Source: Claveliimonas bilis (GTDB taxonomy: Bacteria; Bacillota; Clostridia; Lachnospirales; Lachnospiraceae). Taken from it: a stretch of DNA of 64,000 bases. The position numbers and the translations under genes are program-made. The notes beneath the pieces were generated by a model. That model ran no database searches. It saw only the letters and a list, made by a program, of their open reading frames with translations, and was not told the origin of the DNA. Location of the stretch: the NCBI RefSeq assembly GCF_030296775.1, contig NZ_AP027742.1:1426001-1490000 (forward strand), written 5' to 3'. This document shows positions 11,810 through 64,000 of this stretch, piece after piece. How positions within the stretch are numbered: the stretch's first letter is position 1; every line of letters starts with the position of its first letter.

Positions 11810-11867
11810 AATAAGAAATACTTATAAATAACTTTAGTTATATTAACTTTATTAATAATAAACCTCA

Positions 11868-11876
11868 TGGTATAAT
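11868..11876 (+). promoter_or_regulatory. Extended -10 promoter upstream of purL
   Basis: TGGTATAAT is a TGn-extended -10 box; no good -35 is visible. It leaves an untranslated leader of about 140 bases before purL. Confidence 0.6.
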
Positions 11877-11882
11877 AAACAC

Positions 11883-49386: not shown

Positions 49387-50436
49387 ATGGATAGGAAAAA
49401 ATTATTAAAACTATGTAACAAGGTATCAAGGGCGATAAAGCCATCCACGCAACCCATTATGGAATGCATTTTGATCCATATCAAAGATGGCACTGTAACA
49501 ATACGTGCCGCGGGCAATGGAATGCAAATCATGGTGTGGGATAAAGTAGACGATACATCGACTCAACTGCTTGCAGCCGTAAACGCAGTAAGCCTTAAGG
49601 AATTACTGAACAGACTTCCGTCGGACGAAGTATCCCTTTCTAAAGTGGGTGATACTTTATCCATAAAAAGCGGGAGCATTTCTCTTACTATTCCCTGCAG
49701 AAATGAGCCATTCCCAAAAGAAATGCAGATGGGGAAAACGAAAGTAAAAGCTGCTATTCCTTGTAAGGACATAGAAGCCTGCAAACACTCTGCCCTGCCA
49801 AAAACAATGCTCAACGACAAAATGTCAGGTTATGGTGTTGATATCAAAGGCGATTCCTACATGATTACAACAGTTGATGGACACCGCCTTTCAAGCAGAG
49901 GAAGAAGGACGGTTGTTTTTTCGAATGCATTAACAAAAATTGTTGCACCTGGCGAGATGATGGAAGAAGCAGTCAAAATTTCTGAAGAAGATGAATTTGA
50001 GTTTGCTTATGATGGGAGCAATATACAAGTCTCTGGATCAGGGTATAGTATTATCGGTGCAACCCAGTATAATTGCTTTTTCAATCTTGAGCAGATCCGA
50101 AATCCTGGCTTTACATCATTTTTTGAAGTAAACCGGACAAGTCTTTTGGAGGCTTTGAAGGTAGTCACATTTTTTGATAAGCTGACCGTGCTTAAAATCC
50201 TAAAAGAGAATCTGATTATTAGCAGCAGGGATGCAGCAAAAGGCGACAGCCAAGCGGAAGTACCTATTGTAACAAATGGCAAGGAAATTGAGTTAGGTGT
50301 AAATGGGAACTTTTTATGTGAGGCACTCGACAGCATTTCAGAAGAAACACTTCGGATATACTATTCGTCTAAAATAGCGCCCATTTATTTTGAAAGTGAA
50401 GATATCAAAGAAGTGATTATGCCTGTTCGTTATTAA
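49387..50436 (+). CDS. DNA polymerase III beta subunit (sliding clamp) paralogue
   Basis: A 349-residue protein with the three-domain clamp layout: N-terminal KKLLKLCNKVSRAIKPSTQPIMECI, central KMSGYGVDIKGDSYMITTVDGHRLS (the classic DGHRL block) and the C-terminal end IMPVRY, close to the canonical MPVRL tail. It is shorter than chromosomal DnaN (about 366-378) and embedded among mobile genes, so it is an element-borne second clamp. GAGGAGG precedes ATG 49387. A terminator follows. It may bring the host polymerase to the element or interfere with the host clamp. Confidence 0.85.
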   Translation: MDRKKLLKLCNKVSRAIKPSTQPIMECILIHIKDGTVTIRAAGNGMQIMVWDKVDDTSTQLLAAVNAVSLKELLNRLPSDEVSLSKVGDTLSIKSGSISLTIPCRNEPFPKEMQMGKTKVKAAIPCKDIEACKHSALPKTMLNDKMSGYGVDIKGDSYMITTVDGHRLSSRGRRTVVFSNALTKIVAPGEMMEEAVKISEEDEFEFAYDGSNIQVSGSGYSIIGATQYNCFFNLEQIRNPGFTSFFEVNRTSLLEALKVVTFFDKLTVLKILKENLIISSRDAAKGDSQAEVPIVTNGKEIELGVNGNFLCEALDSISEETLRIYYSSKIAPIYFESEDIKEVIMPVRY

Positions 50437-50443
50437 CGGAAAG

Positions 50444-50471
50444 GGATGTTCCGATATGGAGCATCCTTTTT
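50444..50471 (+). terminator. Terminator after the clamp gene
   Basis: GGATGTTCC pairs with GGAGCATCC (one wobble), followed by T5. Confidence 0.85.
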
Positions 50472-50571
50472 CTTGTGGCAGAAAACCAATCGAACACTAT
50501 ATATGGTATATTACTATTTAGAAGGAGGCAAGTATATCCAATTTAGCAATTAATACTTGGACTGGAAAATT

Positions 50572-51309
50572 ATGATTAAAGAAATAATTGGATGGATCTT
50601 TTATTTTATTGGGACACCATTTCACAAGTTAATTTTATTTTTTAACAAATATGTGGAGCAGGCAACCATGGCTGCAGAAATACCCTGTGTCCTCGTCTTA
50701 CTATATTCTTTATATAAGATTATAGCGGATGGATCCTATATTGGAGAAAGTTCTGCCACGACAGTCTTATACCTGTTGTTGCTTTTGGGTATATGGATAT
50801 TGTTGGCAACTTTTGGGTTCGCTGTGTATTCCCTGGGTGTAATGATCATTTTCTATATTTTATTCTTGGTATCCTTGTTTGGAGATATCATCTTTGAATT
50901 TGGGAAATATCTTCTGGATAAAAGGGAAGAGCAAGGTTCCCAAGGGATAGGAAGAACATTTGATAAAGACGATTTACAAAATGAAAAGATACGGGAAAAA
51001 GAGCGTGAGGAGTTCTGGAGGATGTATAGGGAAGTAAATGCCTTCTATACAAGGGAAAAGACAAGGAAAGAAAGAGAGAGGCATGATGATACATCGTATG
51101 TTCATGTGGATAATATAAAAGAAAATGAGCTCCAGAGGGCAAAGTTACTTTTTGGAGTATCTGATACTTTTACTTACGGAGAACTAAAAGCATCAAGGAA
51201 TCAGTTGATGAGGAAATACCATCCGGACAATCAAGAGGGAAATAGCGCCATGGCCAGAAAGGTTAATGAGTATTATGAATTTCTCTTGCCTTATGCCAGA
51301 AAAACTTAA
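50572..51309 (+). CDS. Membrane protein with C-terminal J-domain
   Basis: A 245-residue protein: three or four membrane helices in the first 125 residues, a charged linker (EKIREKEREEFWRMYREV) and a C-terminal DnaJ-like domain of about 60 residues with the diagnostic loop MRKYHPDNQEG. ATG 50572 is assumed; TTG 50557 in frame is an alternative. Neither has a good ribosome site, and the GGAGG at 50524-50528 is too far away. It should recruit DnaK to the membrane, perhaps for element replication or transfer. Confidence 0.78.
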   Translation: MIKEIIGWIFYFIGTPFHKLILFFNKYVEQATMAAEIPCVLVLLYSLYKIIADGSYIGESSATTVLYLLLLLGIWILLATFGFAVYSLGVMIIFYILFLVSLFGDIIFEFGKYLLDKREEQGSQGIGRTFDKDDLQNEKIREKEREEFWRMYREVNAFYTREKTRKERERHDDTSYVHVDNIKENELQRAKLLFGVSDTFTYGELKASRNQLMRKYHPDNQEGNSAMARKVNEYYEFLLPYARKT

Positions 51310-51362
51310 ACTCTCTTAAACTTTCATATTTGATCGAAATAAAATCAGAGGAGGATTTACTT

Positions 51363-51854
51363 ATGACACTTTATGAACTTACTGAACGGGAACTGGCGCT
51401 TTTGGACCTTATGGAAGATCCAAATACAGACAAAGAAGACTTAAATCTACTGATTGAAGCTTCGGACCAGGAGTTTGGGAGAAAATTGGATGCATATGCA
51501 ACAATCCGTGACCGCATGTTGTCAGATGCCGATATGATCAGCAAAGAAATTAATAGGCTCCAGAAAATAAAAAAAGCAATTGAAGAAAGTGAGGATTCTT
51601 TAAAAGAAAGTATAATCATGTCGATTCGGGCGCTCGGTAAAGCAAAGTACGAGACAAAACTTAGAACCTTTTTAGTCAAAGACTGTGCGCCCAAACTTAT
51701 AGTGGATGACCAGGAAGCTGTTCCAGCTGAGTACCTGGTCAAACAGCCGGACAAAATTAATAATGCAAAACTCAAAAAATACTTAACAGAGCATGGAGAT
51801 GAGGATTGCGAATATGCACATTTAGAGTCCGTTCAGTCACTTGCGATCAAGTAA
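51363..51854 (+). CDS. Siphovirus Gp157-like protein
   Basis: A 163-residue protein matching the Gp157 family of phage and mobile-element early genes: start MTLYELTERELALLDL, a long coiled coil (about 40-95, ADMISKEINRLQKIKKAIEE) and a C-terminal beta part (LRTFLVKDCAPKLIVDDQEAVPAEYL) with the family ending. Family members were linked to phage-resistance or helper roles in lactic acid bacteria phage; the mechanism is not known. GAGGAGG precedes ATG 51363. Its presence points to phage-like ancestry of the module. Confidence 0.82.
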   Translation: MTLYELTERELALLDLMEDPNTDKEDLNLLIEASDQEFGRKLDAYATIRDRMLSDADMISKEINRLQKIKKAIEESEDSLKESIIMSIRALGKAKYETKLRTFLVKDCAPKLIVDDQEAVPAEYLVKQPDKINNAKLKKYLTEHGDEDCEYAHLESVQSLAIK

Positions 51855-51932: not shown

Positions 51933-52268
51933 ATGTTCAACCTTGAAGAAAGAAAAGAAGGAATTTCAAAGAAGGAGCTGGAAGAGACAGCGCTCCGGTT
52001 CCGGATTGGTGATGAGGTATATATACCTGCAGCATTGATTGAAGATTATGACAGAGAAAATAAAGAAGCGACCGAAGCGGTAGTGCAGCAGATATGTAGG
52101 CACCATATTGTGTTTAAATTAAAGAAAACTGGAGTTATGCGCTCTTTCGTCCTTCCTGATTGTATGAATATAACAGTAACCAAGCCATCTGATTTTACGG
52201 TTTCTGGCATAGATAGAAAAATGAATGATACACTATCTTCTATGGACAAGAAAGAGGAAGAGCATTAA
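51933..52268 (+). CDS. Hypothetical protein (111 aa)
   Basis: A 111-residue protein with AAAGGAG before ATG 51933. An N-terminal helix (ISKKELEETALRF) leads to a beta-rich part (FRIGDEVYIPAALIEDYD, ICRHHIVFKLKKTGVMRSFVLP) resembling small SH3-like or translation-type barrels. The C-terminus is charged. Its stop overlaps the truncated IS110 gene by 4 bases, so the end of this gene lies at the insertion boundary and may not be native. Confidence 0.6.
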   Translation: MFNLEERKEGISKKELEETALRFRIGDEVYIPAALIEDYDRENKEATEAVVQQICRHHIVFKLKKTGVMRSFVLPDCMNITVTKPSDFTVSGIDRKMNDTLSSMDKKEEEH

Positions 52269-52639
52269 GCCCTCCCCCTCACATAGCTCCCCGGAACCAG
52301 ACCTAATCGAAATAAATCCCCAATCCATTTGGAATCTTTTGTATCATCCTTATTACCTTTGATAGCTTTCACCCATTTAGGATTAGCAATAGTGACATTC
52401 ATTTCGTCCTCCAAAAGGTTAAAGACAGGAACCCAGTATTTACCGGTAGATTCCATACAGACATCATGGCAATCGTTTTCCAGCAGCCATTCTTTGAATT
52501 GCAGAATAGAATGGTTAAAAGTGGAGAACCGCTTCTTCTGATAGGAAGGCTGAACTCCGGAAGAGGTTTTAATGATTGTGGCAACGAGAAAAGATTTGTG
52601 AACATCGACGCCACAACAGGTTTGATAAACAACTTTCAT
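52265..52639 (-). pseudogene. IS110-family transposase remnant
   Basis: ATG 52639 with GAAAGGAG upstream opens the N-terminal part of an IS110/IS1111 transposase: CCGVDVHKSFLVATII (first catalytic Asp) and CMESTGKYWVPVFNLLE (the Glu), then KAIKGNKDDTKDSKWIGDLFRLGLVPGSY. IS110 transposases are about 400 residues; this stops after 124 with an unrelated RGRA end, so about two thirds are missing. The break near 52275 adjoins the 111-residue gene. Upstream sequence of the old element probably extends to about 52850. Confidence 0.85.
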
Positions 52640-53194
52640 AGTCAAAAAACTCCTTTCAAGTTTGATAAAGAAGCCATTGACTGTTCCATCACACAATTAA
52701 CAGAGAAGTTAAAACAATTCTTACTGTGCGGTCTTATAGAGCCACTTATTTGTGCTTGAAAGATGAAACTTACACTGATTACCATGCTGTCTAAAACAGA
52801 AGAAAGTCTTTACGACTCACCTCCCCGTGCTTTGTAGTATAGCTTCTTTAACCATTATTTTATCAGCAACGTGGAGGATTGGAAGACTTTCATTACTATT
52901 TGTGCCGCCAACTTGGCGGCGGAATGGAGATTACTATGAAAAGGGGAAATAATACAGGCATCAATTCGACATTTCTAAACTATTTCGAAGATCCAATAGT
53001 ATCCGTTTCGATGGCATTGTTGATTGTGGACTATGAATAAATAACATTCAATTAAAAATGAAATAAGTGGTTCGGTATATTAAAATAATCTATAAATCAA
53101 ACTGCTTTCCGTGCTGGCATTATGAAGTACAGTATGATATGCTTTTATCTGTGTTTATAGAAAAATATATGAGTGATGAAAGGAAGAATTTTGT
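52640..53194. other. Boundary region between mobile DNA and the DUF4418 cluster
   Basis: A 555-base gap. The first 200 bases look like the 5' end of the truncated IS110 element. From 52853 to 53040 a short open frame encodes about 60 residues ending STFLNYFEDPIVSVSMALLIVDYE, with a possible ATG at 52936. It resembles the broken end of an older gene; coding is doubtful. 53041-53194 is AT-rich and probably holds the promoter of the DUF4418 gene. Confidence 0.4.
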
Positions 53195-53614
53195 ATGAAC
53201 AAAAGAAAAATTAGCGGAATCATTATATTAATTGCAGCTATTTTTATGATTGGGGCAGTGAAAGTCTGGGCACCGGTTTGTCAGAAATCCTTGGAACTTG
53301 CCAATGGTGGCGAAACCCATATGAAGTGTTTTTATTATGGAACGACCATGATGTATATCGGGGTACTTCTTTTGGCGGAGGCTATTGTTATGTTTTTTGT
53401 GAAGAATACAAGAGCAGTCGGTATTATCGCAGTTGTTACAGGTCTTTTGATGATTGCACTGACAAGTGGAAATATAGGAATCGGTGTTTGCCCAAATCCG
53501 GAGATGATGTGTAATTCCACCGCATTGTGGGGAAGAATAGGTGCAGTCGTGGCAATGTTTGGCGGTATCGTTGCAATTATTGGAGAAGGTACCAACATTC
53601 CGCAGGTAAAATAG
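53195..53614 (+). CDS. DUF4418 membrane protein
   Basis: A 139-residue protein with four membrane helices (about 8-26, 47-68, 74-92, 112-131). Cysteines face the same side in the loops: C29 after the first helix, the HMKC pair (about 42-45) before the second and VCPNPEMMC (about 98-106) before the last. This is the DUF4418 pattern. AAAGGAAG precedes ATG 53195. It is the first gene of the cluster and is followed after 37 bases by an FtsX-type permease, a common pairing. Function unknown; the paired cysteines hint at metal or redox chemistry. Confidence 0.82.
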   Translation: MNKRKISGIIILIAAIFMIGAVKVWAPVCQKSLELANGGETHMKCFYYGTTMMYIGVLLLAEAIVMFFVKNTRAVGIIAVVTGLLMIALTSGNIGIGVCPNPEMMCNSTALWGRIGAVVAMFGGIVAIIGEGTNIPQVK

Positions 53615-53651
53615 TGGAATGTTATTTTTATATTGGACTGGTGGTAAAGAA

Positions 53652-54869
53652 ATGGGTAAGGAAAAAAGAATCAATTGTTTTTCAATTGCGGTTAGAAATT
53701 TGAATGCACAGATGTACCGAAGTCTGTTTATGATGTTTTTTGTGCTTCTCATGTCAGCAACATTCTTTTTCAGTAATGTATTAGTAGAGAATATGAGACT
53801 TGGAATCAAAAATACAACGGAGAGAATGGGAGCAGATATTATAGTGATTCCGAATAAGGGAACGGAAGATATCAGAGAATCATTATTTTCCGGAACACCT
53901 TGTTCTGTGGCAATCTCAAAAGACTGGGTGGAAAGGCTTGGAAAAATCGAGGGTGTAAAAAGACTGTCACCGCAGCTTTATGTTGCTACGCAGGCAGCAT
54001 CCTGCTGTGATGCAGCAGTTCAGCTTATCGCATTTGATCCAAAGACAGATTTTGTCGTGAGTCCATGGCTGAGTGAAAAGCAGGAACTGAATCTCGAAGT
54101 GGGAGAAGTTGTGGTCGGCTATAATGTTGCGGCTAAAATTGGTCAAAATATAAAATTTTATAATACGGAATTTAAGGTGGCAGCAAAGCTTGATAAGTCA
54201 GGAATGGGATATGATAATTCTGTTTTCATGACTTTCGATACAATATATAAACTGGCAAATTCCGATATTGTATCTGAGAATCTGGATAAAGAGAATCTGA
54301 AAAATATCGCATCCATGATTATGATCGAGGTAGAGGACGGCGTGTCAGTAGGTTCTTTCGGCGTGGATCTTCAAGAGGCATATCCGGAAGAAGAGGAAAT
54401 CTATGCATGTACAGCAAGTGATTTGATGAGCGGAATGGCAAAGGAAGTGGAAAAATTGTCGGGATACGGCAATTTATTGATTGTATTGCTTGTTGTATCT
54501 ACGGCTCTTGCCTTAATCAGTATTTTTATGCTTACAATCAATGAAAGAAAATATGAGTTTGGTATTTTGTATGTTCTGGGAGCTAAGAGACGACAAGTGT
54601 TCCAAATTATTATATCGGAAGCAATGATTATTAGTTTGGTCGGAGGATTTATCGGGTTAATTGTGGCGTATTTCGGAATGGCTGTTTTTGGTGATGTAAT
54701 TCGTAAAAAACTGGAGATTCAATATATGAGTATGAAATTGGAGCAGGTAGGAATGACGGCTCTAATCTGTATGGGAATTTCATTCTTGACAGGAATACTT
54801 GCTGCTGTTAGTTCTGTATATAGAATCAGTAAAGAAGAACCGTACCGGCTGATAAGGGAGAAAGAGTAA
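53652..54869 (+). CDS. ABC transporter permease, FtsX/MacB type
   Basis: A 405-residue permease: one N-terminal membrane helix (about 25-46), a large outer domain of about 210 residues (MacB periplasmic-core-like) and three C-terminal helices (about 270-385) with NERKYEFGILYVLGAKRRQVFQII, the typical FtsX coupling stretch. Such permeases do not move small solutes through a channel but work mechanically on lipids, lipoproteins or peptides. The ATPase gene follows after 1 base. The outer domain has a CC pair (about 117-118). Confidence 0.9.
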   Translation: MGKEKRINCFSIAVRNLNAQMYRSLFMMFFVLLMSATFFFSNVLVENMRLGIKNTTERMGADIIVIPNKGTEDIRESLFSGTPCSVAISKDWVERLGKIEGVKRLSPQLYVATQAASCCDAAVQLIAFDPKTDFVVSPWLSEKQELNLEVGEVVVGYNVAAKIGQNIKFYNTEFKVAAKLDKSGMGYDNSVFMTFDTIYKLANSDIVSENLDKENLKNIASMIMIEVEDGVSVGSFGVDLQEAYPEEEEIYACTASDLMSGMAKEVEKLSGYGNLLIVLLVVSTALALISIFMLTINERKYEFGILYVLGAKRRQVFQIIISEAMIISLVGGFIGLIVAYFGMAVFGDVIRKKLEIQYMSMKLEQVGMTALICMGISFLTGILAAVSSVYRISKEEPYRLIREKE

Positions 54870-54870
54870 G

Positions 54871-55536
54871 ATGATAAAAACAAAAGGTTTGACAAAAAAA
54901 TTTAGCAGAAACGAAAAAGAGTTTTACACATTGAAAGATGTGAGTCTACATGTAGGAAAAGGTGAATTTGTCGGTATCGCAGGACATTCAGGAAGCGGAA
55001 AAACAACCTTTTTCAATATGATTGCAGGTCTGACAAAACCTACTTCCGGTAAAATCTACATAAACGACAAGGAAATTACAGCAATGTCTGAAAATGAACT
55101 GGCGGAATGCAGAAATAAGGAAGTTGGTTATATTTTGCAAGGTAGCAGTCTTCTTAATAATTTTACGGTATTGGATAATGTCTGCATGCCGGCGTATTTA
55201 GCTTCTTCTTATGAAAAGAAGAGAGAGCATGCAAGAAAGCTGCTGAAGGAAATGGGAATTGAGCATTTGGAAAATGAATTTCCAGAGTTTTTGTCAGGCG
55301 GAGAGCGAAAGAGAGTTTCCATTGCCCGCGCCATGCTGAATGAACCATTAGTTATTCTTGCCGATGAACCGACCAGCAATCTGGATATGGAGAATTCTAA
55401 AAAAGTCATGGAGTTATTAAAACAGATCAGCGAACAGGGAACGACTGTGTTGGTAAGTACACATGAATTGGAATGGTTAAAATATACGGATTATGCCATG
55501 GAGATGGAGGATGGTGTCTTAAAACACTATAGATAA
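54871..55536 (+). CDS. ABC transporter ATP-binding protein (LolD/MacB type)
   Basis: A 221-residue ATPase with Walker A GHSGSGKTT (38-46), Q-loop in GYILQGSSLLNNF, signature LSGGERKRVS, Walker B VILADEPTS and the H-loop STHELEW. It is the partner of the permease 1 base upstream and belongs to the MacB/LolD group. AAGGGAGAAAG precedes ATG 54871. Confidence 0.94.
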   Translation: MIKTKGLTKKFSRNEKEFYTLKDVSLHVGKGEFVGIAGHSGSGKTTFFNMIAGLTKPTSGKIYINDKEITAMSENELAECRNKEVGYILQGSSLLNNFTVLDNVCMPAYLASSYEKKREHARKLLKEMGIEHLENEFPEFLSGGERKRVSIARAMLNEPLVILADEPTSNLDMENSKKVMELLKQISEQGTTVLVSTHELEWLKYTDYAMEMEDGVLKHYR

Positions 55537-55573
55537 TATCTATAAATATAGAAGTATATATTTGTGGAATCGA

Positions 55574-55603
55574 TTGGACATGAAAAATCTACTTAAGTAT
55601 AAT
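55574..55603 (+). promoter_or_regulatory. Promoter of the YdjX-like gene
   Basis: TTGGAC at 55574-55579 and TATAAT at 55598-55603, spacer 18. It marks a second transcription unit inside the cluster. Confidence 0.65.
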
Positions 55604-55664
55604 AGAAATGGTGAGTCATATACAGAAATCACTCTAATACTAAACTACAGGAAAGGAGAAAACA

Positions 55665-56387
55665 GTGGAAGAAAAGGATTTAACGAAAAAAAGAAGTAGA
55701 CGAATTCAACAGATTGTTGTAATTGCCCTTTTTGCAGTGGCTATTTTATCATACTTTTTTGTCCCAGGTGTCAGAAAGATGGTAGGTACTATTACGAAGA
55801 TGTTTGCTACGGGTGATTTTACGGTTGTCAAAGAGTTTGTTGCTTCTTACGGAGCCTACGCAGCAGCAGTTTCTTTCATGTTAATGATTGCACAGTCAAT
55901 AGCAGCGCCGTTGCCAGCCTTCTTGATTACATTTGCGAATGCAAATCTTTTTGGCTGGTGGAAGGGTGCAATTCTTTCATGGAGCAGCGCTATGGCTGGA
56001 GCGGCAGTATGTTTCTGCATCGCAAGAATTCTCGGACGTGATGTGTGCGAGAGACTTACAAGCAAGGCAGGACTCAAGCAGATTGATGAGTTCTTTGAGA
56101 AACATGGAAGAATGAGTATTCTGATTGCAAGACTGCTTCCGTTTATGTCATTTGACATTGTGAGTTATGCAGCGGGTCTTACGTCCATGTCATTTTGGAG
56201 CTTTTTTGTAGCGACTGGTATTGGACAGCTTCCGGCAACTATCATTTATTCTTATGTTGGAGGAATGCTCACAGGTGGAGCAAAACTATTTGTGACAGGT
56301 TTACTTTTATTATTCTCAATTTCAGCATTGGTTGTTTTGTTCAGACAGCTTTATGTAGAAAGACAGAAGAAAAAAGCCAAAAAGTAA
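55665..56387 (+). CDS. TVP38/TMEM64 family membrane protein, YdjX-like (first copy)
   Basis: A 240-residue membrane protein starting at GTG 55665 with GGAAAGGAG upstream. About five or six helices; the family core is PLPAFLITFANANLFGWWKGAILSWSSAMAGAAVCF (about 85-120, over two lines of the pattern), then RLLPFMSFDIVSYAAGLTSMSFW and the GxGQLPATIIYSYVG end. It belongs to the VTT/DedA-like scramblase superfamily. In E. coli, ydjX and ydjZ of this family flank ydjY exactly as here. Substrate unknown. Confidence 0.88.
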   Translation: MEEKDLTKKRSRRIQQIVVIALFAVAILSYFFVPGVRKMVGTITKMFATGDFTVVKEFVASYGAYAAAVSFMLMIAQSIAAPLPAFLITFANANLFGWWKGAILSWSSAMAGAAVCFCIARILGRDVCERLTSKAGLKQIDEFFEKHGRMSILIARLLPFMSFDIVSYAAGLTSMSFWSFFVATGIGQLPATIIYSYVGGMLTGGAKLFVTGLLLLFSISALVVLFRQLYVERQKKKAKK

Positions 56388-56412
56388 AAACAGTAAAGAT
56401 AGGAGAAAAAAT

Positions 56413-57084
56413 ATGAAATTAAGAAAAATGGCAGCAATTTTTGCCGCAGCAGCAATGGTATTTTCTTTGGCAGCATGTGGCGCTAAAGATACAACTTCTG
56501 ATGACGGAACAAAAAAAGATACAGAAGCAGAAACTATGATTGTAGATAAAGAAAATAAAGAAATCACAATGCTTTGCGAAGTAAACGGAACATATTTTAC
56601 AGAGCCTACAAGACACGGTATTGTATATGCAGAAGGTTCTAACGGAGAGAAAGCTGTACTTCGCGGACTTGCTGATGAGAAAGAGTTTTATCAGGCACTT
56701 CTTGATATCGGTGCAACTGCAGGTGACAACCTGACAGATGAGGATATGAAAGCGGGTCCAGATAATGGTAAAGCTGTAGAAGGTGACAAATTAAATGTAT
56801 TTGTAAAATGGGAAGGACAGGATGAGATTCCATTTGCTGATATCATTAAGTGTTCTGAGGGAGAATATGAGATGGACATCCGTTTCGGCGGCAACATTGA
56901 GAGTGCAAAGAAGTATAATACAGGTTGTGTACTTTGCCTTGACAGCTGTGCAACGGGTATCACAAGTGATGCAACATGGCCGACAGGAACAACTCAGAAT
57001 GAAGTTGCAAAATTCTATGGTGATGATTCCGTATTGCCGGAAGATGGAACACAGGTAACAGCAATCTTCCGTTTAGCTGAGTAG
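56413..57084 (+). CDS. YdjY-like lipoprotein
   Basis: A 223-residue lipoprotein: signal peptide with lipobox LAAC, C22. The mature part contains the YdjY-type block EITMLCEVNGTYFTEPTRHGIVYAEGSNGEKAVLRGLADEKEFYQALLDIGATAGDN (spread over about 50-105) and five more cysteines (C54, C142 and GCVLCLDSC near 170), which may hold a metal or cluster. Its place between two TVP38-family genes matches E. coli ydjX-ydjY-ydjZ. AGGAG precedes ATG 56413. A membrane protein gene follows after 2 bases. Confidence 0.82.
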   Translation: MKLRKMAAIFAAAAMVFSLAACGAKDTTSDDGTKKDTEAETMIVDKENKEITMLCEVNGTYFTEPTRHGIVYAEGSNGEKAVLRGLADEKEFYQALLDIGATAGDNLTDEDMKAGPDNGKAVEGDKLNVFVKWEGQDEIPFADIIKCSEGEYEMDIRFGGNIESAKKYNTGCVLCLDSCATGITSDATWPTGTTQNEVAKFYGDDSVLPEDGTQVTAIFRLAE

Positions 57085-57086
57085 TA

Positions 57087-57482
57087 ATGAGTTACATAAA
57101 AAGTATTTATACAGGTTTTTTGTGGGCATTGACAATTGCTACTCTCTGCTTTAAAAATGAGTGGCTTCAAATGCGTGTAAATACAGGATTGATTTTTGGC
57201 GGACTTTTGTTGGTTCTTTCAATTGTGCTAATTTTACTTTCCCAAAAGAAAAAAATAACACTGAATTGGATAACGACGTTAGGAAGCCTTATAATCTGTA
57301 CGGTAATCGGTCTTGCCGTTTACGGTTTTAGCAGAATGAAAGTAGTGCCTGCAGCATTGGTACGAGAAGGAATTAATCAGACAAGAATTCCATTTGCAAC
57401 TATCAATAAGGTGTTGTTAATAGTGACTTTTGGAGGAGCTATTATAATTTTGGCAACAGAGCTAATGAATAGAAAGAAATAA
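57087..57482 (+). CDS. Small four-helix membrane protein, unknown
   Basis: A 131-residue protein with four hydrophobic helices (about 6-22, 33-51, 60-79, 105-126). No family recognised. It begins 2 bases after the YdjY-like gene, so translation is likely coupled. It has no counterpart in the E. coli ydj-ynj cluster. A terminator follows. Confidence 0.72.
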   Translation: MSYIKSIYTGFLWALTIATLCFKNEWLQMRVNTGLIFGGLLLVLSIVLILLSQKKKITLNWITTLGSLIICTVIGLAVYGFSRMKVVPAALVREGINQTRIPFATINKVLLIVTFGGAIIILATELMNRKK

Positions 57483-57495
57483 AATATAACAAAAA

Positions 57496-57541
57496 TGCCT
57501 TGAAGGAATTACAGTTGTTCGTGATTATTCAAGGCGTTTTT
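57496..57541 (+). terminator. Terminator inside the cluster
   Basis: TGCCTTGAA pairs with TTCAAGGCG (one wobble), followed by T5. It divides the cluster between the 131-residue membrane protein and the second TVP38 gene. Confidence 0.75.
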
Positions 57542-57579
57542 ATATAGAAAAGACATGGTGTAATAGGAGACAAGATAAA

Positions 57580-58272
57580 ATGCAAAAGAAAAAGAACTGG
57601 ATTAAAATCATAATATTTGTATGTATTGTGACGGGGATTTTAATGTTAAATCATCATTATGGCTGGTCTTCTTACCTTGGAGATATGAGCAATCTTATGT
57701 TCCTAAAAACCATGGTAGAAGAAAATATTGTGGCTGCATTAGCTTTATATATTATAATTACAATTGTCGGATGTGTCGTACTTGCCCTTCCGGGCGTTAC
57801 TTTTGCAGTAATAGCGGGAATGTTATTTGGCCCGATATGGGGGATTTTTGCTTGCCTTCTAGCAACAACAGTAGGTGCAATGCTGGCATTTCTCGTAGGA
57901 AAGTTCTTTTTGAAAGATGCAGTTAAGCCAATGCTTGAAAAGAATAAATTAATGAAAAAGCTGCTGTTTTCAGATGATAGGAAAAGCGATATTATTATAC
58001 TTATAATAACCAGAATGGTTCCAATATTTCCTTATAATCTGCAAAATTTTGCCTATGGGATTACGGATATCGGGTTTTGGAAATATTCGATTTTAACCTT
58101 TGTATTTATGTTTCCGGGGGTGTCCTTTTTCACAATTGGAGCGGCAGGACTTACTGCGGGAGAAGATAAATGGAAATACTTTTTAATTGCCGGTGTATTG
58201 GCGGTTGCGGTAACGGTAGCCGGACTGTTGATAAAGAAGAAATTTCTTGGAAATGAGATAGACGCGGAGTAG
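57580..58272 (+). CDS. TVP38/TMEM64 family membrane protein, YdjZ-like (second copy)
   Basis: A 230-residue membrane protein of the same family as the gene at 55665 but clearly diverged: ALPGVTFAVIAGMLFGPIWGIFACLLATTVGAMLAFLVGKF is the core (about 72-112), followed by RMVPIFPYNLQNFAYGITDIGFW and the FPGVSFFTIGAAG end. AATAGGAG precedes ATG 57580. Two non-identical copies around a YdjY protein suggest a heteromeric membrane unit. Confidence 0.88.
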   Translation: MQKKKNWIKIIIFVCIVTGILMLNHHYGWSSYLGDMSNLMFLKTMVEENIVAALALYIIITIVGCVVLALPGVTFAVIAGMLFGPIWGIFACLLATTVGAMLAFLVGKFFLKDAVKPMLEKNKLMKKLLFSDDRKSDIIILIITRMVPIFPYNLQNFAYGITDIGFWKYSILTFVFMFPGVSFFTIGAAGLTAGEDKWKYFLIAGVLAVAVTVAGLLIKKKFLGNEIDAE

Positions 58273-58277
58273 AAAAA

Positions 58278-59255
58278 ATGAGTGAAATAAATGTAGAAAA
58301 TTGTATCCATTGCGGTCTTTGCACGAGAAATTGTTCCTTTTTGAAAAAATATGATTTGGATCTTCAGAAGTTTTCAGAGCATCCAGAACTGGCATATTCT
58401 TGTTTTATGTGCAGAAAATGTTCACAAGTTTGTCCTAAAAAAATCAGCGGAGAAAAGATTGCGCTTGCAATGCGCAAAGAACAGGTGCAAAATGGAGAAG
58501 GTGCAAAAAAGGATTTGGCATATAGAGGGCTTTTATGGGAAAAGAACAGATATAAGTTTGCCAATTATAAAAAGAGCAAAAAGAAGTCTGTTTTTATGCC
58601 TGGCTGCAATTTTTCTTCCTTTTTTCCAAAGACAACGAAACGTCTGGAGGAAATTATGAAGAAGCACGATATAGGAATTCTGTATGAGTGCTGTGGAAAG
58701 CCTGTTTATGAATTGGGATTGATATCGGATGCAGAAAATAGTTTGCAACGTATAGAAGAACGATTGAGGAAAAATGGAGTGGAAGAGCTTATTCTTCTTT
58801 GCCCGAATTGTTATCATTTTATGAAAGACAAAATCAGGATTCCGATTGTTACTATTTATGATAAACTGAAAGAATTGGGCGAAGGAAATGTGGTGAAAAA
58901 GGATGTGATTCCTATGTATTATCCGTGCCCAGACAGAAAAGACAAGATTCTTTTTGAAGATATGCGGTACTTTTTGAAAGGGAAAATTGAATCACCGTTT
59001 CAAAATGTACAGTGTTGCGGGCTCGGTGGGTGCGCGGCGGCAAAAGAACCGGAACTATCCAAAGGAATGCCAAAGCAAGTGATTGAAGGAGATACAAAAA
59101 TTCTTTATACATATTGCGCTTCTTGTGTATGTAATTTTAGAAGAAAAGGATTTGAAGAGGCGTATCATGTACTTCCCCTCATATTGGGAGTGGATGAAAA
59201 AGTACCTCTTGGCATGCAGCCATTTTTTAACCGGGCAAAACACTTGGTGATATAA
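58278..59255 (+). CDS. (Fe-S)-binding oxidoreductase, heterodisulfide-reductase-like
   Basis: A 325-residue protein. Two 4Fe-4S sets stand at the N-terminus: C9, C12, C15, C19 (CIHCGLCTRNC) and C42, C45, C48, C52 (CFMCRKCSQVC). Two CCG-type motifs follow, YECCGKPVYELG (about 135) and VQCCGLGGCAA (about 243), as in HdrB/GlpC/LutA proteins that handle disulfides or pass electrons. It starts 5 bases after the YdjZ-like gene. A redox protein in a transport cluster suggests that the substrate is reduced or a thiol; this is inference. Confidence 0.88.
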   Translation: MSEINVENCIHCGLCTRNCSFLKKYDLDLQKFSEHPELAYSCFMCRKCSQVCPKKISGEKIALAMRKEQVQNGEGAKKDLAYRGLLWEKNRYKFANYKKSKKKSVFMPGCNFSSFFPKTTKRLEEIMKKHDIGILYECCGKPVYELGLISDAENSLQRIEERLRKNGVEELILLCPNCYHFMKDKIRIPIVTIYDKLKELGEGNVVKKDVIPMYYPCPDRKDKILFEDMRYFLKGKIESPFQNVQCCGLGGCAAAKEPELSKGMPKQVIEGDTKILYTYCASCVCNFRRKGFEEAYHVLPLILGVDEKVPLGMQPFFNRAKHLVI

Positions 59256-59282
59256 ATCTGCGAAAAGTACGTGGGAGAGAAT

Positions 59283-60167
59283 ATGGCATTAAAAATTATT
59301 ACGGATTCAGCCTCTGATTTACCAAAAGCAGTAACAGAAGCGTTAGAGATAGAAGTGATTGCGACACCTGTGCTTATAAATGGAAGTGATTATTTTGACG
59401 GCGAGACCATACAGGCAAAAAAAATTTATGAAATTTTGCGTGACGGAAAAGAAACGGTATCCACTTACCATATCAATACATATATGTTCATAAAGCATTT
59501 TGAGCCATATGCAAAGCGAGGAGACCAGTTGATTTACATTTGTTTTTCTACGGGAATTGCAGGAACATACAATGCGGCAAATCAAGCAAAAGAGGATTTG
59601 ATGGAGATATATCCGGATTTTGATTTGACAATTATTGATTCGAAATGTGCGTCTTTGGGCTTTGGACTTGTTGTAATGTATGCAGGTTGGATGCTCCGGG
59701 CAGGGGCTCAAAAAGAGGAGATTATAGAAGCTATAAAATATCATTGTGAACATATGAGACATGTGTTTACTGTAGATACACTTGAATATTTGTTGAAGAG
59801 TGGACGAATCGGTAAGACTTCTGCCATAGCCGGAGAGATTTTGAATATTCGCCCTATCATTACTGTGGATGACAATGGAAGTTTGAAAGCGGAAGAGAAA
59901 GTGCGAGGAAGAACAAAATCTATCCGTAGACTAATTGATTATGTGGGAGAGCATGGTGTAGAGCTTTCTAAACAAACGGTTGGAATTGTTCATGGTGATG
60001 ACGAGGAGACGGTGAATAAAATAAAAGAAATGCTAAGAGAAAAATATGGGGTAACCCTTACGATAGATAATTATGTAGGGTGTGCGATAGGTGCTCATAC
60101 TGGTCCCGGAATAGTGGGGATTGTTTTTTTGGATGCGCATTCACCGTATATTACAAAAGAAACCTAG
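59283..60167 (+). CDS. DegV family protein
   Basis: A 294-residue fatty-acid-binding fold protein (FakB-like). The N-terminal ITDSASDLP (7-15) and the C-terminal GAHTGPGIVGIVF are typical. The fatty-acid loop usually reads TSxPS; here it reads VSTYHINTYMF, which lacks the usual Pro and the second Ser, so ligand choice may differ. GGGAGAG precedes ATG 59283. In the cluster it lies between the Fe-S protein and the importer. Confidence 0.88.
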   Translation: MALKIITDSASDLPKAVTEALEIEVIATPVLINGSDYFDGETIQAKKIYEILRDGKETVSTYHINTYMFIKHFEPYAKRGDQLIYICFSTGIAGTYNAANQAKEDLMEIYPDFDLTIIDSKCASLGFGLVVMYAGWMLRAGAQKEEIIEAIKYHCEHMRHVFTVDTLEYLLKSGRIGKTSAIAGEILNIRPIITVDDNGSLKAEEKVRGRTKSIRRLIDYVGEHGVELSKQTVGIVHGDDEETVNKIKEMLREKYGVTLTIDNYVGCAIGAHTGPGIVGIVFLDAHSPYITKET

Positions 60168-60179
60168 GAGGAAAGAAAG

Positions 60180-61430
60180 ATGAAGAAACTATTATCTTTA
60201 CTGTTTGTTGCAATATTGGTATTTCCCCTTGCAGCATGTGGCGGTAATAAAGAGAAAGCTGACACAACAAAGGAAGACAAGAAAGAAATCAGCGTAGAGG
60301 AAATGTCCTTTGATGAGCTCAAAGAAGCGGCAAAAGGTTCCACGGTTACTTTCTATGGATGGGGCGGAGATGAGGTATTGAATGAGTGGCTAGACAATAC
60401 CTTTGCTCCGATTATGAAAGAAAAATATGATATCACTATGGAACGTGTTCCGATGGATATTGATCAGGTATTAAGCCAGCTTTCGGGAGAGATTCAGGGC
60501 GGTGAGGAAGACGGAAGTATTGATATGATCTGGATTAACGGTGAGAATTTCCGTTCTGCAAAGGAAAATAACATGCTTTTCGGACCGTTTACAGAGAAAC
60601 TTCCGAATTTTAATGACTATGTTGATGCGACGAATGAAGACGTAACACTTGACTTTGCTTATCCGATTGAAGGATATGAAGCTCCGTACGGGAAAGCGCA
60701 GTTTGTAATGATGGCTGACACGGACAAGACACCGGAGCTTCCTGCAAGTGCAGAAGAATTCAAGGCATTTGCAGAAAAATATCCGGGGAAAGTAACTTAT
60801 CCTGCACTTCCGGACTTCACAGGCAGTGCATTTGTAAGAAATATAATATATGAACTGTGTGGATATGAGCAGTTCCTTACAATGGAAGCAGACAAAGAAG
60901 TGATCAGAGAGGCAGTTGCACCTGCCATGGAATATTTGAGGAACTTAAATCCATATCTCTGGAACGAAGGAAAGACATTTCCAGACTCTTCTACAACACT
61001 TGACAATATGTTTGCCGATGGGGAAGTTTTATTATATATGACATATGGCGCTTATGATGCAGCGGTTAAGATTGCAGACGGAGCTTATCCGGAGACCGTA
61101 CAGTCCTTCCAGTTTGATAAGGGAACGATCGGGAACACGAACTTTATGGCAATTGCAGGGAACTCGGGAAACAAAGCCGGAGCAATGGTAGCAATCAATG
61201 AAATGCTTTCACCGGAAATTCAGGCCAGCCGTTATGACAGTATGAAAGTGCTTCCTGTTCTTGATAACACAAAACTTTCTGATGAGCAGAAAGCAGCATT
61301 TGATGCGGTTGATCTTGGAAAAGGAACTATTCCGCAGGATGAACTTTTAGCAAAACGACTTCCGGAGATGCCGGCAGAACTTGTGCCGATCATTGAGGAA
61401 ATCTGGGCAGAAGAAGTAGTAGGAAAATAA
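60180..61430 (+). CDS. YnjB-like ABC transporter substrate-binding lipoprotein
   Basis: A 416-residue lipoprotein with lipobox LAAC, C20. The mature N-terminus GSTVTFYGWGGDEVLNEWLD, then IDMIWINGENFRSAKENNMLFGPFTEKLPN, matches the YnjB family (COG4134), distant from iron/thiamine-type binding proteins. AGGAGGAAAG precedes ATG 60180. The two permease genes and the ATPase gene follow in the YnjBCD order. The ligand is unknown also in E. coli. Confidence 0.88.
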   Translation: MKKLLSLLFVAILVFPLAACGGNKEKADTTKEDKKEISVEEMSFDELKEAAKGSTVTFYGWGGDEVLNEWLDNTFAPIMKEKYDITMERVPMDIDQVLSQLSGEIQGGEEDGSIDMIWINGENFRSAKENNMLFGPFTEKLPNFNDYVDATNEDVTLDFAYPIEGYEAPYGKAQFVMMADTDKTPELPASAEEFKAFAEKYPGKVTYPALPDFTGSAFVRNIIYELCGYEQFLTMEADKEVIREAVAPAMEYLRNLNPYLWNEGKTFPDSSTTLDNMFADGEVLLYMTYGAYDAAVKIADGAYPETVQSFQFDKGTIGNTNFMAIAGNSGNKAGAMVAINEMLSPEIQASRYDSMKVLPVLDNTKLSDEQKAAFDAVDLGKGTIPQDELLAKRLPEMPAELVPIIEEIWAEEVVGK

Positions 61431-61431
61431 C

Positions 61432-62298
61432 ATGAAAAAAACGGTACCATATTTATTACTGGTTCCACAGACTATCCTTGCCGTATTATTTTTAATAGGG
61501 CTCATAACCGGAATTATCCAAAGTCTAGGGGTGATTCCGGCTTTTGGCTTAGAGGAACCGACGTTATCTTATTATAAAGAAGTGCTGCAGAGGCCGGATA
61601 TGCTGGAATCTGTGGCGTTCAGTATTAAGACGGCATTCATATCGGCGGCTTTTGCCACTTTGATGGGGGTGTTCTTAGGCGGACTTTGCGTCATGAGGAA
61701 ACGCGCAGAGGGAGGATTCATGCGTGTGGTGCAACTTCCGATCATTGTGCCTCATGTAGTGGCGGCGCTTTTTATGGTCAATATCTTTTCCAGGAATGGG
61801 ATTTTGGCGAGGGTATGCTATATGCTGGGAATGATTAACGATCAACAGCAGTTTCCAATGCTGATTTATGATGCAAATGGTGTTGGAATCATTATGGCCT
61901 ATCTTTGGAAGGAGATACCGTTTATCATTTACTTTGTGATTGCATTGATGGCGAATATTAATGGGAACTTTGGAGAAGCCGCGATTAATTTAGGTGCGGG
62001 GAAGTGGACTGCGTTTTGCAGAATAACCCTTCCACTGTGCAAAAATACTATTATAAGCGGTTTCCTGATCATATTTGTATTTGCGCTTGGAGCATATGAA
62101 CTCCCGTTGATCTTAGGGGCGACAACGCCAAAAGCCTTGCCGATCCTGGCTTACCAGCAGTATATTCACCCGGATTTGCGGAATCGGCCTTACGCGATGG
62201 CTTTAAATGGGATCATTATGATCATTTCATTGATTAGTGCGTTGATTTATTTTATAATGACGCAGAAAAATATGAAAGAACTGACGGATAAAAAATAG
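61432..62298 (+). CDS. ABC transporter permease, YnjC N-half-like
   Basis: A 288-residue permease with six helices and the coupling stretch AAINLGAGKWTAFCRITLPLCKNTI (EAA-type loop). It starts 1 base after the binding-protein stop. E. coli YnjC is a single protein of about twice this size with two permease halves; here they are separate genes. Confidence 0.88.
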   Translation: MKKTVPYLLLVPQTILAVLFLIGLITGIIQSLGVIPAFGLEEPTLSYYKEVLQRPDMLESVAFSIKTAFISAAFATLMGVFLGGLCVMRKRAEGGFMRVVQLPIIVPHVVAALFMVNIFSRNGILARVCYMLGMINDQQQFPMLIYDANGVGIIMAYLWKEIPFIIYFVIALMANINGNFGEAAINLGAGKWTAFCRITLPLCKNTIISGFLIIFVFALGAYELPLILGATTPKALPILAYQQYIHPDLRNRPYAMALNGIIMIISLISALIYFIMTQKNMKELTDKK

Positions 62299-62301
62299 AT
62301 T

Positions 62302-63117
62302 ATGATGAAGAAAAAGAACTCATGGATTGAAAATCTGATATTGGCCTTATTAGCATTGGTGATTTTGCTGCCGATACTCACACTCTTGATATGGACATTT
62401 ACGGAACGCTGGGCATGGCCTGATTTGATCCCTCAGGTATTTTCTGCGAGAGCTTTGCGGGAAATACTGCGCCAGAAGGAGAGTCTTACAAAGATATTTG
62501 TGTCGAGTATTTTGATTTCTACGGTGGTGGCGGTACTTTCGGCGACCATCGGGCTTATGACGGCCAGGGCATTGGTGTTCTACGATTTTGCAGGTAAGAA
62601 GACTATATCATTTTTGACGATATTGCCATTTATGGTACCAGTGACAGTGTTTGCTATGGGAGTGCAGGTCGTATTTATTAAGATGAGGCTTAACAATACC
62701 ATCACAGGTGTGATCATTGCCCATCTCATTTGTTCCCTGCCTTATGCAGTAAGGCTTTTGACGGATGGGACACAGGCTGTTGGCATGAGACTGGAGGAAC
62801 AGGCAAGAGTCCTTGGAGCTTCGGCGTTTACGGCATTTTTTAGGATATCTCTTCCGATGCTTGTACCGGTGATATTATCAGCGGTGAGTATGTCATATAT
62901 CGTTTCATTCAGTCAGTATTTCCTGACACTCATGATCGGAGGGGGAAATGTAAGAACATTTACCATTATTATGGTGCCGTATCTGCAGAGCGGTAATCGG
63001 AATATTGCCTGTATTTATAGTGCGATCTTCCTTGGTATTACGCTGGCAGTGTTTGGTATATTCGATGAGATTGCAAAACATTTTACAAAAAACAATGGCG
63101 GCGATTACTACAGTTAG
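62302..63117 (+). CDS. ABC transporter permease, YnjC C-half-like
   Basis: A 271-residue permease with six helices and the EAA-type loop EEQARVLGASAFTAFFRISLPMLVP. Two adjacent ATGs (62302, 62305) follow the preceding stop by 3 bases; there is no clear ribosome site, which suggests translational coupling. It forms a heterodimer with the preceding permease (family knowledge). Confidence 0.88.
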   Translation: MMKKKNSWIENLILALLALVILLPILTLLIWTFTERWAWPDLIPQVFSARALREILRQKESLTKIFVSSILISTVVAVLSATIGLMTARALVFYDFAGKKTISFLTILPFMVPVTVFAMGVQVVFIKMRLNNTITGVIIAHLICSLPYAVRLLTDGTQAVGMRLEEQARVLGASAFTAFFRISLPMLVPVILSAVSMSYIVSFSQYFLTLMIGGGNVRTFTIIMVPYLQSGNRNIACIYSAIFLGITLAVFGIFDEIAKHFTKNNGGDYYS

Positions 63118-63128
63118 CGGAGGAGAAG

Positions 63129-63959
63129 ATGAGCTTAACGATAGAGAATCTGAAAGTAACATTACAAAAAAAGGAAATACTTCATGGGATAAACCTGGAT
63201 GCGAAAGAGGGAGAATTTATATCCCTTCTGGGAGCATCCGGATGCGGAAAGACTACGCTTTTAAAAAGTATCGCGGGACTTCTGGATGTACAAGACGGAA
63301 ATATCAGAATCCGTAAAGAATCTGTGCTCGGAGTTGCTCCGGAGAAAAGGGGAACGATTATCGTGTTTCAGGATCTGAGATTGTTTCCACATATGACGGT
63401 GGAGAAAAATATTACGTTTCCGATGGAATTGAAGAGAGTACCCAAAGAGGAACAGCGGGCTAATGTAAAGAAACTTTTGGAGGCGGTGCAGTTATCCGGT
63501 TTTGAAAAGCGGAAGATGCGGGAAATGTCCGGCGGTCAGATGCAGCGGGTGGCTCTTGCGAGGGCACTGGCGGCGAATCCGAAGGTACTTCTTCTTGATG
63601 AACCGTTTTCCGGGCTGGATGAAAAACTCAGAGAGGAGATGGGACGCCTTGTGAAAGAACTGCATGAGCTGTGGAAGATTACCACGATCCTTGTAACTCA
63701 CGATATTCGTGAGGCGCTTCAGATGTCAGACCGTATCGCTGTGATGAGCGAAGGAAATGTTTTGCAGTATGATACTCCGAAGAATATAATGGAGCATCCC
63801 GCAAATCAGACTGTGGCGGATTATTTTGGGAAAATGAACTATGTGGAAGGAGTTGTAAAAGACGGAAAGTTCGTAAGCGGACTTTTTGAGGCAGAGGTGG
63901 ATTTGCCAGACGGCGAATATAAAGCCGGAATCACATGGTTTAAGAAAGGAAGAAAATAA
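63129..63959 (+). CDS. ABC transporter ATP-binding protein, YnjD-like
   Basis: A 276-residue ATPase: Walker A GASGCGKTT (about 35-43), Q-loop VFQDLRLFPHMTV, signature MSGGQMQRVALARAL, Walker B VLLLDEPFSG and the H-loop VTHDIREAL. The last 60 residues extend beyond the core and may form a small regulatory domain (YVEGVVKDGKFVSGLFEAEV). AGGAG precedes ATG 63129. The nucleoside hydrolase gene starts 1 base after the stop. Confidence 0.93.
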   Translation: MSLTIENLKVTLQKKEILHGINLDAKEGEFISLLGASGCGKTTLLKSIAGLLDVQDGNIRIRKESVLGVAPEKRGTIIVFQDLRLFPHMTVEKNITFPMELKRVPKEEQRANVKKLLEAVQLSGFEKRKMREMSGGQMQRVALARALAANPKVLLLDEPFSGLDEKLREEMGRLVKELHELWKITTILVTHDIREALQMSDRIAVMSEGNVLQYDTPKNIMEHPANQTVADYFGKMNYVEGVVKDGKFVSGLFEAEVDLPDGEYKAGITWFKKGRK

Positions 63960-63960
63960 T

Positions 63961-64000
63961 ATGAAGCATATCGTATTTGACTGTGACTGTACGTTTGGCG
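63961..64000 (+). CDS. Probable nucleoside hydrolase, 5' end only
   Basis: ATG 63961 follows AAAGGAAGA and the ATPase stop by 1 base. The 13 visible residues, MKHIVFDCDCTFG, resemble the N-terminus of the ribonucleoside hydrolase family (DxDxTxG, calcium-binding Asp residues). With so little sequence the call is tentative. If right, the importer may bring in a nucleoside-like compound that this enzyme cleaves. Confidence 0.5.
   Translation, partial: MKHIVFDCDCTFG

Follow-up and report, generated by a model that had tools for sequence, protein, structure and literature searches.

Within a 64,000-nucleotide stretch of the Claveliimonas bilis genome (contig NZ_AP027742.1, positions 1426001-1490000 of a 3.11-Mb genome; hereafter the window), 13 plus-strand genes at 53195-63959 form a cluster that combines two VTT/TVP38 membrane proteins, the lipoprotein YdjY and a YnjBCD-type ATP-binding cassette (ABC) importer. 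We conclude that this YdjY-TVP38-YnjBCD set very probably makes up one functional system with a second cluster of the same genome, here called cluster B. Computation shows genes that are inherited together, lie together and are in part fused; the element and substrate involved, and every catalytic step, are what we infer. Our best explanation, offered tentatively and at rather less than even probability, is that the window holds the uptake and redox half, and cluster B the other half, of a system for the uptake and processing of an organoarsenic riboside. Taken separately, the role of YnjBCD is in all likelihood import, the solute is more likely than not sugar- or nucleoside-like, and the chance that it is organoarsenic is close to even. 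In what follows G000 denotes the window's genome, L007 the window locus and L008 the locus of cluster B.

Six VTT genes are present in G000, two of them near 1.89 Mb, where cluster B lies (within G000:C1:1882000-1901000). Cluster B opens with a lipoprotein of rhodanese type, followed in transcription order by a small membrane protein, TVP38-b, a CCG protein, TVP38-a and an AhpD-like protein. Next come a radical S-adenosylmethionine (SAM) protein, a C-GCAxxG-C-C protein and a glycosyltransferase with two domains, and the row closes with a kinase-like protein, another membrane protein and a second and third rhodanese. Its CCG and TVP38-a proteins are paralogues of the window copies (46% and 69%, respectively). 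NCBIfam assigns the radical SAM protein to ArsS (TIGR04167, 438 bits, cut-off 300) and the AhpD-like protein to TIGR04169 (205 bits, cut-off 120), and the glycosyltransferase is a fusion of TIGR04282 (189 bits, cut-off 134) and TIGR04283 (221 bits, cut-off 182). One of the three rhodaneses is YnjE-like (37% over 428 amino acids). With this YnjE-like protein in cluster B, most of the content of the E. coli ydjXYZ-ynjABCD operon is split over two clusters, and cluster B is tied to the ArsS set. E. coli YnjA was considered as an orthologue of the TIGR04169 protein and rejected (E 0.003 over just 19 residues).

The two halves are also linked by their distribution across 245 genomes of the class. 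ArsS lies above cut-off in five of these (weak radical SAM matches in 229; one of 14 control genomes above cut-off), YdjZ-type TVP38 in seven (eight matches, 52-100% identical), TIGR04283 in eight, YnjB in eight, the kinase in six, the hydrolase clade described below in eight and YnjF in one. All five ArsS genomes carry TVP38-a, and all seven TVP38-a genomes carry TIGR04283 (p 8e-13 by genome, 4e-10 by genus). The kinase is found in precisely those genomes that have both TIGR04283 and YnjB (6 genomes, 5 genera), and YnjB is present in 6/8 hydrolase genomes. Hypergeometric p values for the pairs ArsS/TVP38-a, TVP38-a/TIGR04283, kinase/TIGR04283 and YnjB/hydrolase, which ignore the phylogenetic tree, range from 8e-13 to 3e-9 by genome and from 4e-10 to 6e-7 by genus. 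ArsS and TVP38-a are on separate contigs in three of the five ArsS genomes and ~0.6 Mb or more apart in another, so that their co-occurrence goes beyond mere adjacency.

Elsewhere the halves are physically joined. Genome G301 unites them in the row CCG, kinase, two glycosyltransferases, ATPase, permease 2, permease 1, YnjB, small membrane protein (smTM), YdjY and TVP38, with TVP38-a divergent, and single loci with both halves also occur in G331 and in the Oscillospiraceae locus L038. Fusions were found between TIGR04282 (DUF2064) and CCG (L014), between CCG and a flavin adenine dinucleotide (FAD) oxidoreductase (L163, L166), between FAD oxidoreductase and TVP38 (L094 and, by annotation, L176) and between TVP38 and rhodanese (L163). 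The window CCG protein corresponds to the C-terminal half of the CCG-FAD oxidoreductase fusion model.

To place YdjY in context, one pattern-based scan of genome contigs gave 155 stretches and 26 loci, 19 non-enterobacterial and 7 enterobacterial; several loci stop at contig ends, and neighbour counts are therefore lower bounds. YdjY is rare in the order (1/196 genomes, the window's own), but the genes around it are found again in Clostridia, Brachyspira, Caccocola, Coriobacteriia, one Bacillales genome and Enterobacteria, which argues that the cluster is more than chance. The 19 non-enterobacterial loci include YdjZ-type TVP38 in 14, CCG in 13, smTM in 16, a TIGR04282/4283-like protein in 11 (weak in L023, at 58 bits), ArsS in 4 and YnjB in 3; counted by genome, the search covered 17 YdjY genomes, without those of L016 and L020, and YnjB is present in 5. 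In the seven enterobacterial loci, ydjZ, ynjA, ynjB and ynjE are always present; smTM, CCG, the glycosyltransferase and ArsS were seen in none of them. The initial annotation of the window had proposed a single pathway across phyla, to be abandoned if YdjY, TVP38 and YnjB did not co-occur beyond its two cases; the survey finds them together beyond those cases and agrees with the proposal. The same annotation had regarded the small membrane and Fe-S genes as new insertions; both are in fact usual outside Enterobacteria, and it is E. coli that is without them. Its inclusion of the DegV protein is likewise not upheld, since DegV was found in 1/54 loci, the window's own. Among side observations, five Brachyspira loci (L016, L017, L018, L019, L021) have YdjY in two or three copies, and long YdjY-containing open reading frames (ORFs) of 389-390 and 690 amino acids occur in L034 (9335-10507), L036, L037 and L038 (5365-7437); no TVP38 was found within loci L034, L036 and L037.

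An alignment of 22 YdjY sequences shows three invariant cysteines, with a fourth, near-invariant one in the signal/lipobox region. This does not agree with the E. coli annotation as a 4Fe-4S ferredoxin, which calls for four conserved cluster cysteines; three cysteines would suit As(III) or a different soft metal. The AlphaFold2 (AF2) model of YdjY has a predicted local distance difference test (pLDDT) score of 87. A PDB sequence search (best E 0.27) and a Foldseek search of the model (best E 0.35) gave no result. With VIA-align, MTH639 (3cbn) reached Z 6.0 (root-mean-square deviation 3.5, 122 residues aligned) and fluorinase-type chains Z 3.5-4.7, in the program's middling range.

The partners of YnjBCD point to the nature of its solute. 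In 22 YnjB neighbourhoods, with Enterobacteria counted once, YnjF lies beside YnjBCD in 11, a hydrolase clade in 7, both in none and neither in 4 (p 0.002, kinship uncorrected). YnjF belongs to the CDP-alcohol phosphatidyltransferase family (phospholipid synthase), and its sole occurrence among the class genomes is in G234, which has YnjB and lacks the hydrolase. Members of the hydrolase clade have Trp-Asp in place of the His-Asp of RihC in 9/9 aligned sequences and a longer N-terminal metal loop in 8/8 that cover it. In nucleoside hydrolases the His-Asp and loop residues are catalytic and metal-binding. Because Trp-Asp and the longer metal loop replace these canonical residues, the clade would be expected to act on substrates whose leaving group is not an ordinary base. 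The earlier call of a probable nucleoside hydrolase in the window thus stands as to family (PF01156 above cut-off), while the canonical short DxDPGxDD loop and the His before the late Asp are missing. In G331, a His-Asp nucleoside hydrolase lies ~450 bases from a Trp-Asp one (L154:10413-11339 and 11796-12713), a natural control pair. The YnjB model (pLDDT 75) has an ordinary solute-binding fold, and the 50 matches shown are tied at Z 21.0-22.7, including sugar, polyamine and other binders. A YnjF-like and a YnjB-like protein share one frame in a draft Bacillales genome (L026:12793-14463); we rejected this as a true fusion and in our opinion it is probably a deletion. In Aliiroseovarius, a gene for the common enzyme glyceraldehyde-3-phosphate dehydrogenase adjoins YnjF-YnjBCD (L165:5114-6115), and related ORFs occur near the glycosyltransferase loci L118 and L119.

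Several neighbourhoods place the same families among arsenic genes. On Enterococcus gilvus pCR1C, arsR-arsD is followed, past the record origin, by acr3-arsC-rhodanese-TVP38, the last being of YdjZ type (51% to YdjZ). A Pseudanabaena plasmid has the row TVP38-mercuric reductase-ArsM-TVP38-ArsS, both TVP38s being nearest YdjX, and plasmids of Acinetobacter and Burkholderia glumae unite ArsS, TIGR04282/4283, methylthioadenosine (MTA) phosphorylase and TVP38/FAD proteins; MTA phosphorylase was noticed beside ArsS in L088 and L094 only, and in such aerobic ArsS clusters it may take the place of hydrolase plus kinase. Arsenosugar phospholipids are an arsenolipid class of algae and plankton. For the Synechocystis enzymes, the available parts of two papers have ArsS act on arsenic in arsenosugar synthesis (PMC8552651, PMC12159101), and arsenosugar phospholipids are described in the accessible part of a further paper (PMC7345539). 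ArsM is above cut-off in 6/35 genomes searched. In G000 there is no NF008823 (ArsM) match at E<=1e-15; methylated arsenic would therefore need an outside source, and a simple de novo ArsM-ArsS reading was rejected for this genome. A literature search for TVP38 with arsenosugar returned no paper joining both, and one for TVP38 with arsenic nothing beyond work on indium, as far as the available part of that paper goes (PMC8679861).

Put together as an organoarsenic system, YnjB with its two permeases and ATPase would import a small ribosyl (nucleoside- or sugar-like) organoarsenical. YdjY and smTM, at the outer face, would carry out thiol/Fe-S redox chemistry on the arsenic centre, chemistry that the CCG Fe-S protein (elsewhere an FAD oxidoreductase), the rhodaneses and the AhpD-like protein may share. 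In one branch, the unusual hydrolase-like enzyme would cleave the sugar, the choline-kinase-like protein would phosphorylate it, and TIGR04282 and TIGR04283 would then activate and transfer it, respectively; in a second, in E. coli and others, YnjF would join the imported sugar to phospholipid. The YdjX/YdjZ TVP38 pair may shift lipid or solute across the membrane, and ArsS, together with ArsM where present, would supply the same arsenic sugar by de novo synthesis. Family ties make a lipid scramblase role for TVP38 plausible; the DedA subfamily COG0398 is described, in the part of PMC10127716 available, as unlikely to flip undecaprenyl phosphate and as nearest eukaryotic scramblases. The initial annotation had suggested that a solute linked to a thiol, metal or lipid is taken up and handled reductively; that direction is kept, and the partners now favour a solute that is sugar- or nucleoside-like and quite possibly organoarsenic, some relatives having in addition an arm that makes phospholipid.

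We regard it as unlikely that YnjF makes arsenosugar phospholipid. Similarly doubtful is a fuller proposal, in which E. coli ydjXYZ-ynjABCDEF and the anaerobe clusters would serve arsenosugar salvage: glyceryl arsenosugar would be imported and converted by YnjF to arsenosugar phospholipid, the hydrolase/kinase/TIGR04282/TIGR04283 branch would dismantle and rebuild, YdjX and YdjZ would act as scramblases for arsenolipids, and YdjY would be a thiolate protein for As(III).

Several observations weigh against the organoarsenic explanation. The 245 genomes do not count as independent of one another, and the inclusion of G000 was by design. The 'arsenosugar' names of TIGR04169, TIGR04282 and TIGR04283 are NCBI labels, G000 is without the ArsM match, and the YnjB fold names no ligand. 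Parts of the set also occur on their own: 5/8 YnjB genomes have no ArsS above cut-off and 3/8 (G234, G249, G302) no TVP38-a; two genomes without YnjB (G311, G376) have a more distant hydrolase of the clade; smTM is the sole partner in 4/19 YdjY loci (L024, L034, L036, L037); and the YdjZ-type TVP38 of Peptoclostridium stands alone, with the hydrolase adjoining this organism's YnjBCD. YnjF-YnjBCD is alone in two Rhodobacterales records, as is YnjBCD in one S. meliloti record, and no arsenic-annotated genes are present in those stretches. E. coli, searched as a control, gave no TIGR04283 match. TVP38 is annotated in three of five ArsS plasmid neighbourhoods (L087, L088/L176, L094); the two that have no such annotation (L092, L178) are the ArsS stretches from Thiodictyon and Hymenobacter. 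Finally, room is left for selenium, because one ArsS (L042, G373; at the position of a conserved Cys close to the C-terminus) and three ArsM relatives (L122, L126, L127) have an in-frame TGA, likely selenocysteine, and because the cluster B rhodaneses have weak matches to ExtH, a selenite/tellurite protein (49-57 bits, cut-off 200).

On this last alternative, which we consider unlikely, the same proteins would process an organoselenium (or tellurium) sugar or nucleoside, and the anaerobe ArsS would adenosylate selenium species. Besides the TGA codons and the ExtH matches, the absence of ArsM from G000, a CCG match to a family named for its nearness to selenocysteine, and a DedA protein tied to selenite (cited in the available part of PMC8679861) fit it. 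Selenocysteine within a protein, however, says nothing of a selenium substrate, and both the E. gilvus ars gene row that ends with a rhodanese and a YdjZ-type TVP38, and the ArsM flanked by two TVP38 genes beside ArsS, point to arsenic. A broad stress system for thiols, disulfides or soft metals, with arsenic as one setting among several, is equally improbable in our judgement. It would account for the recurrence of rhodanese, FAD oxidoreductase and CCG without ArsS (L163, L164, L166, L114) and for the P-type-ATPase-like ORFs, named from sequence, near clusters in three genomes (L022, L023, L120), but it leaves unexplained the importer, kinase, nucleotidyl-/glycosyltransferase, hydrolase and YnjF, as well as the exact coincidence of the kinase with YnjB plus TIGR04283.

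The frequent pairing of YnjF with YnjBCD, in two neighbourhoods with nothing else of the set, and the match of the system's kinase to Choline_kinase (32 bits, cut-off 29) would also suit a metalloid-free headgroup salvage, in which YnjBCD would import an alcohol or sugar, YnjF or the kinase/TIGR04282/TIGR04283 proteins would build lipids or glycoconjugates, TVP38 would flip the lipid and the redox genes would be secondary. The ArsS, rhodanese, CCG and AhpD-like genes are tied to the same TVP38 and TIGR04283 genes, however, and we hold this possibility to be an outside one, much like the two before it. Chance, or loosely related stress and transport genes that happen to adjoin, is highly improbable: the variable gene order and the single parts found alone in places speak for it, whereas co-inheritance of distant loci, the fusions and recurrence across phyla speak against it. 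The organoarsenic explanation remains our preferred, if tentative, one. If true, it would mean that common gut bacteria take up organoarsenicals and possibly also make arsenolipids.

Family searches agree with the initial annotation on the content of the window cluster: two VTT/TVP38 proteins, YdjY, YnjB, two separate permeases, an ATPase, a Fer4+CCG protein, a DegV protein and a small membrane protein.

Features of the window cluster, in window coordinates.
Feature	Position	Strand	Matches and remarks
DUF4418 membrane protein	53195..53614	+	PF14387, 77.5 bits; also in L023, L093; recurrent neighbour, membership less sure
MacB/FtsX-type permease	53619..54869	+	PF02687, PF12704; recurrent neighbour in L023, L093, weakly L081
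ABC ATPase, partner of MacB-type permease	54871..55536	+	Relatives adjoin the permease in L023, L093
Promoter-like site	55575..55603	+	11/12 matches; within the 128-base gap ahead of TVP38-a; near background
TVP38-a, YdjZ type	55665..56387	+	PF09335, 98 bits; 53% to YdjZ
YdjY lipoprotein	56413..57084	+	NF040466, 140 bits (cut-off 50); invariant CxxCxxxC
smTM, small membrane protein	57087..57482	+	Comes after YdjY in most non-enterobacterial loci; no match in Pfam and NCBIfam searches
TVP38-b, YdjX type	57580..58272	+	PF09335, 74.5 bits; 98.6 bits with YdjX
CCG protein, 4Fe-4S + CCG	58278..59255	+	PF02754, PF13183
DegV protein	59271..60167	+	PF02645; probably no part of the system
YnjB solute-binding lipoprotein	60180..61430	+	NF008633 (PRK11622), 471 bits (cut-off 203); 38% to E. 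coli YnjB
Permease 1, YnjC first half	61432..62298	+	PF00528
Permease 2, YnjC second half	62302..63117	+	26% over 152 amino acids to YnjC
Importer ATPase, YnjD role	63129..63959	+	NCBIfam match
Nucleoside-hydrolase-like gene, Trp-Asp type	63961..64000, on to 64830 (L007:12962-13831)	+	PF01156, 139.3 bits (cut-off 34.2); 14th gene, final 830 bases outside the window

The intergenic gaps are short, the widest being 128 bases ahead of 55665 and 97 ahead of 57580. ORFs were called as the longest frames with unrefined starts, and single genes were missed in some enterobacterial loci. Promoter-like sites (40 found, 31.7 expected) and terminator-like sites (9 found, 8.0 expected) are both near background. 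The initial annotation began the cluster at 55574; since the DUF4418-MacB-ATPase genes (53195-55536) recur beside YdjY in Pelotomaculum (L023) and Acetoanaerobium (L093), the conserved neighbourhood begins earlier, near 53195, and it also runs past the window end.

The cluster is preceded by an IS110-type transposase fragment (window 52268-52696, minus strand), and after the hydrolase gene comes a pair of IS3-like transposase genes (HTH_Tnp_1 + rve; L007:14302-15536). Because transposase genes flank both sides, the cluster may have been acquired. Further left, at window 49387-51854, are phage- or mobile-element-like genes (a DNA polymerase III beta-clamp homologue, a weak J-domain match, Siphovirus Gp157), and beyond the IS3-like genes is a flavin oxidoreductase of the NADH:flavin oxidoreductase family (L007:16630-18564).

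Several known systems resemble single parts of the cluster. Of the 759 residues of NF045663, a pyridine nucleotide-disulfide oxidoreductase/dicluster-binding protein, 311-638 align with the window CCG protein, which differs in having no FAD domain (108 bits, cut-off 530). An ATPase of the cluster is related to SaoA of the Sao ABC system, below the model's cut-off (NF040729, 199 bits, cut-off 360), and TVP38-a scores 35.6 bits against the model of UptA, the undecaprenyl phosphate flippase of the DedA family, far under its cut-off of 250. The hydrolase-like enzyme shares the PF01156 family with the nucleoside hydrolases RihA and RihC. With the ArsM-ArsS arsenosugar pathway of cyanobacteria, the window genome shares ArsS, TIGR04169, TIGR04282/4283 and TVP38 in one genome; it differs in having no ArsM, in the additional importer, hydrolase and kinase, and in the CCG protein without an FAD domain.

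The closest comparison is with E. coli ydjXYZ-ynjABCD. Searches for papers on the function of this pathway found none in the texts available, and those on ynjF only work unrelated by title. The window has the parts of an E. coli-type operon, with YdjY and the YnjB subfamily above cut-off and both YdjX-type and YdjZ-type TVP38; YdjY (39%), YdjZ (53%), YdjX (28%) and YnjB (38%) are identical to these degrees, and the importer is of the same type. The gene order does not follow that of E. coli, as had been claimed: the window reads Z-Y-m-X-CCG-DegV-B-P1-P2-ATP, compared with X-Y-Z-A-B-C-D, and in K-12 the row is ydjX-ydjY-ydjZ-ynjA-B-C-D-E with ynjF convergent. A reading of the first TVP38 as YdjX is ruled out, as TVP38-a is much nearer YdjZ (53% over 231 amino acids) than YdjX (26% over 147); TVP38-b scores 98.6 bits against YdjX and 42.7 against YdjZ. 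The window further differs in having smTM and CCG, in a YnjC split into two genes, and in a hydrolase-like gene in YnjF's place. As the initial annotation had stated, ynjA is absent from the cluster; no match to ynjA, ynjE or ynjF was found in or beside the window locus, nor any to YnjF in G000 at E<=1e-20. A Klebsiella pneumoniae record listed as a plasmid (pINF355, L091) has an operon of the ydjX-ydjZ-ynjA-B-C-D-E type without ydjY. The 8-kb E. coli stretch with the operon genes is covered at >=80% in 5337/5426 complete E. coli genomes, and FNR activates ydjXYZ-ynjABCD and ynjE, according to the part of PMC3688515 available, which fits the many anaerobes among the relatives. The ArsS link, which spans several phyla and fused proteins, provides a testable starting hypothesis for what the E. 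coli operon does, and in this comparison that operon is a stripped relative of the system described here.

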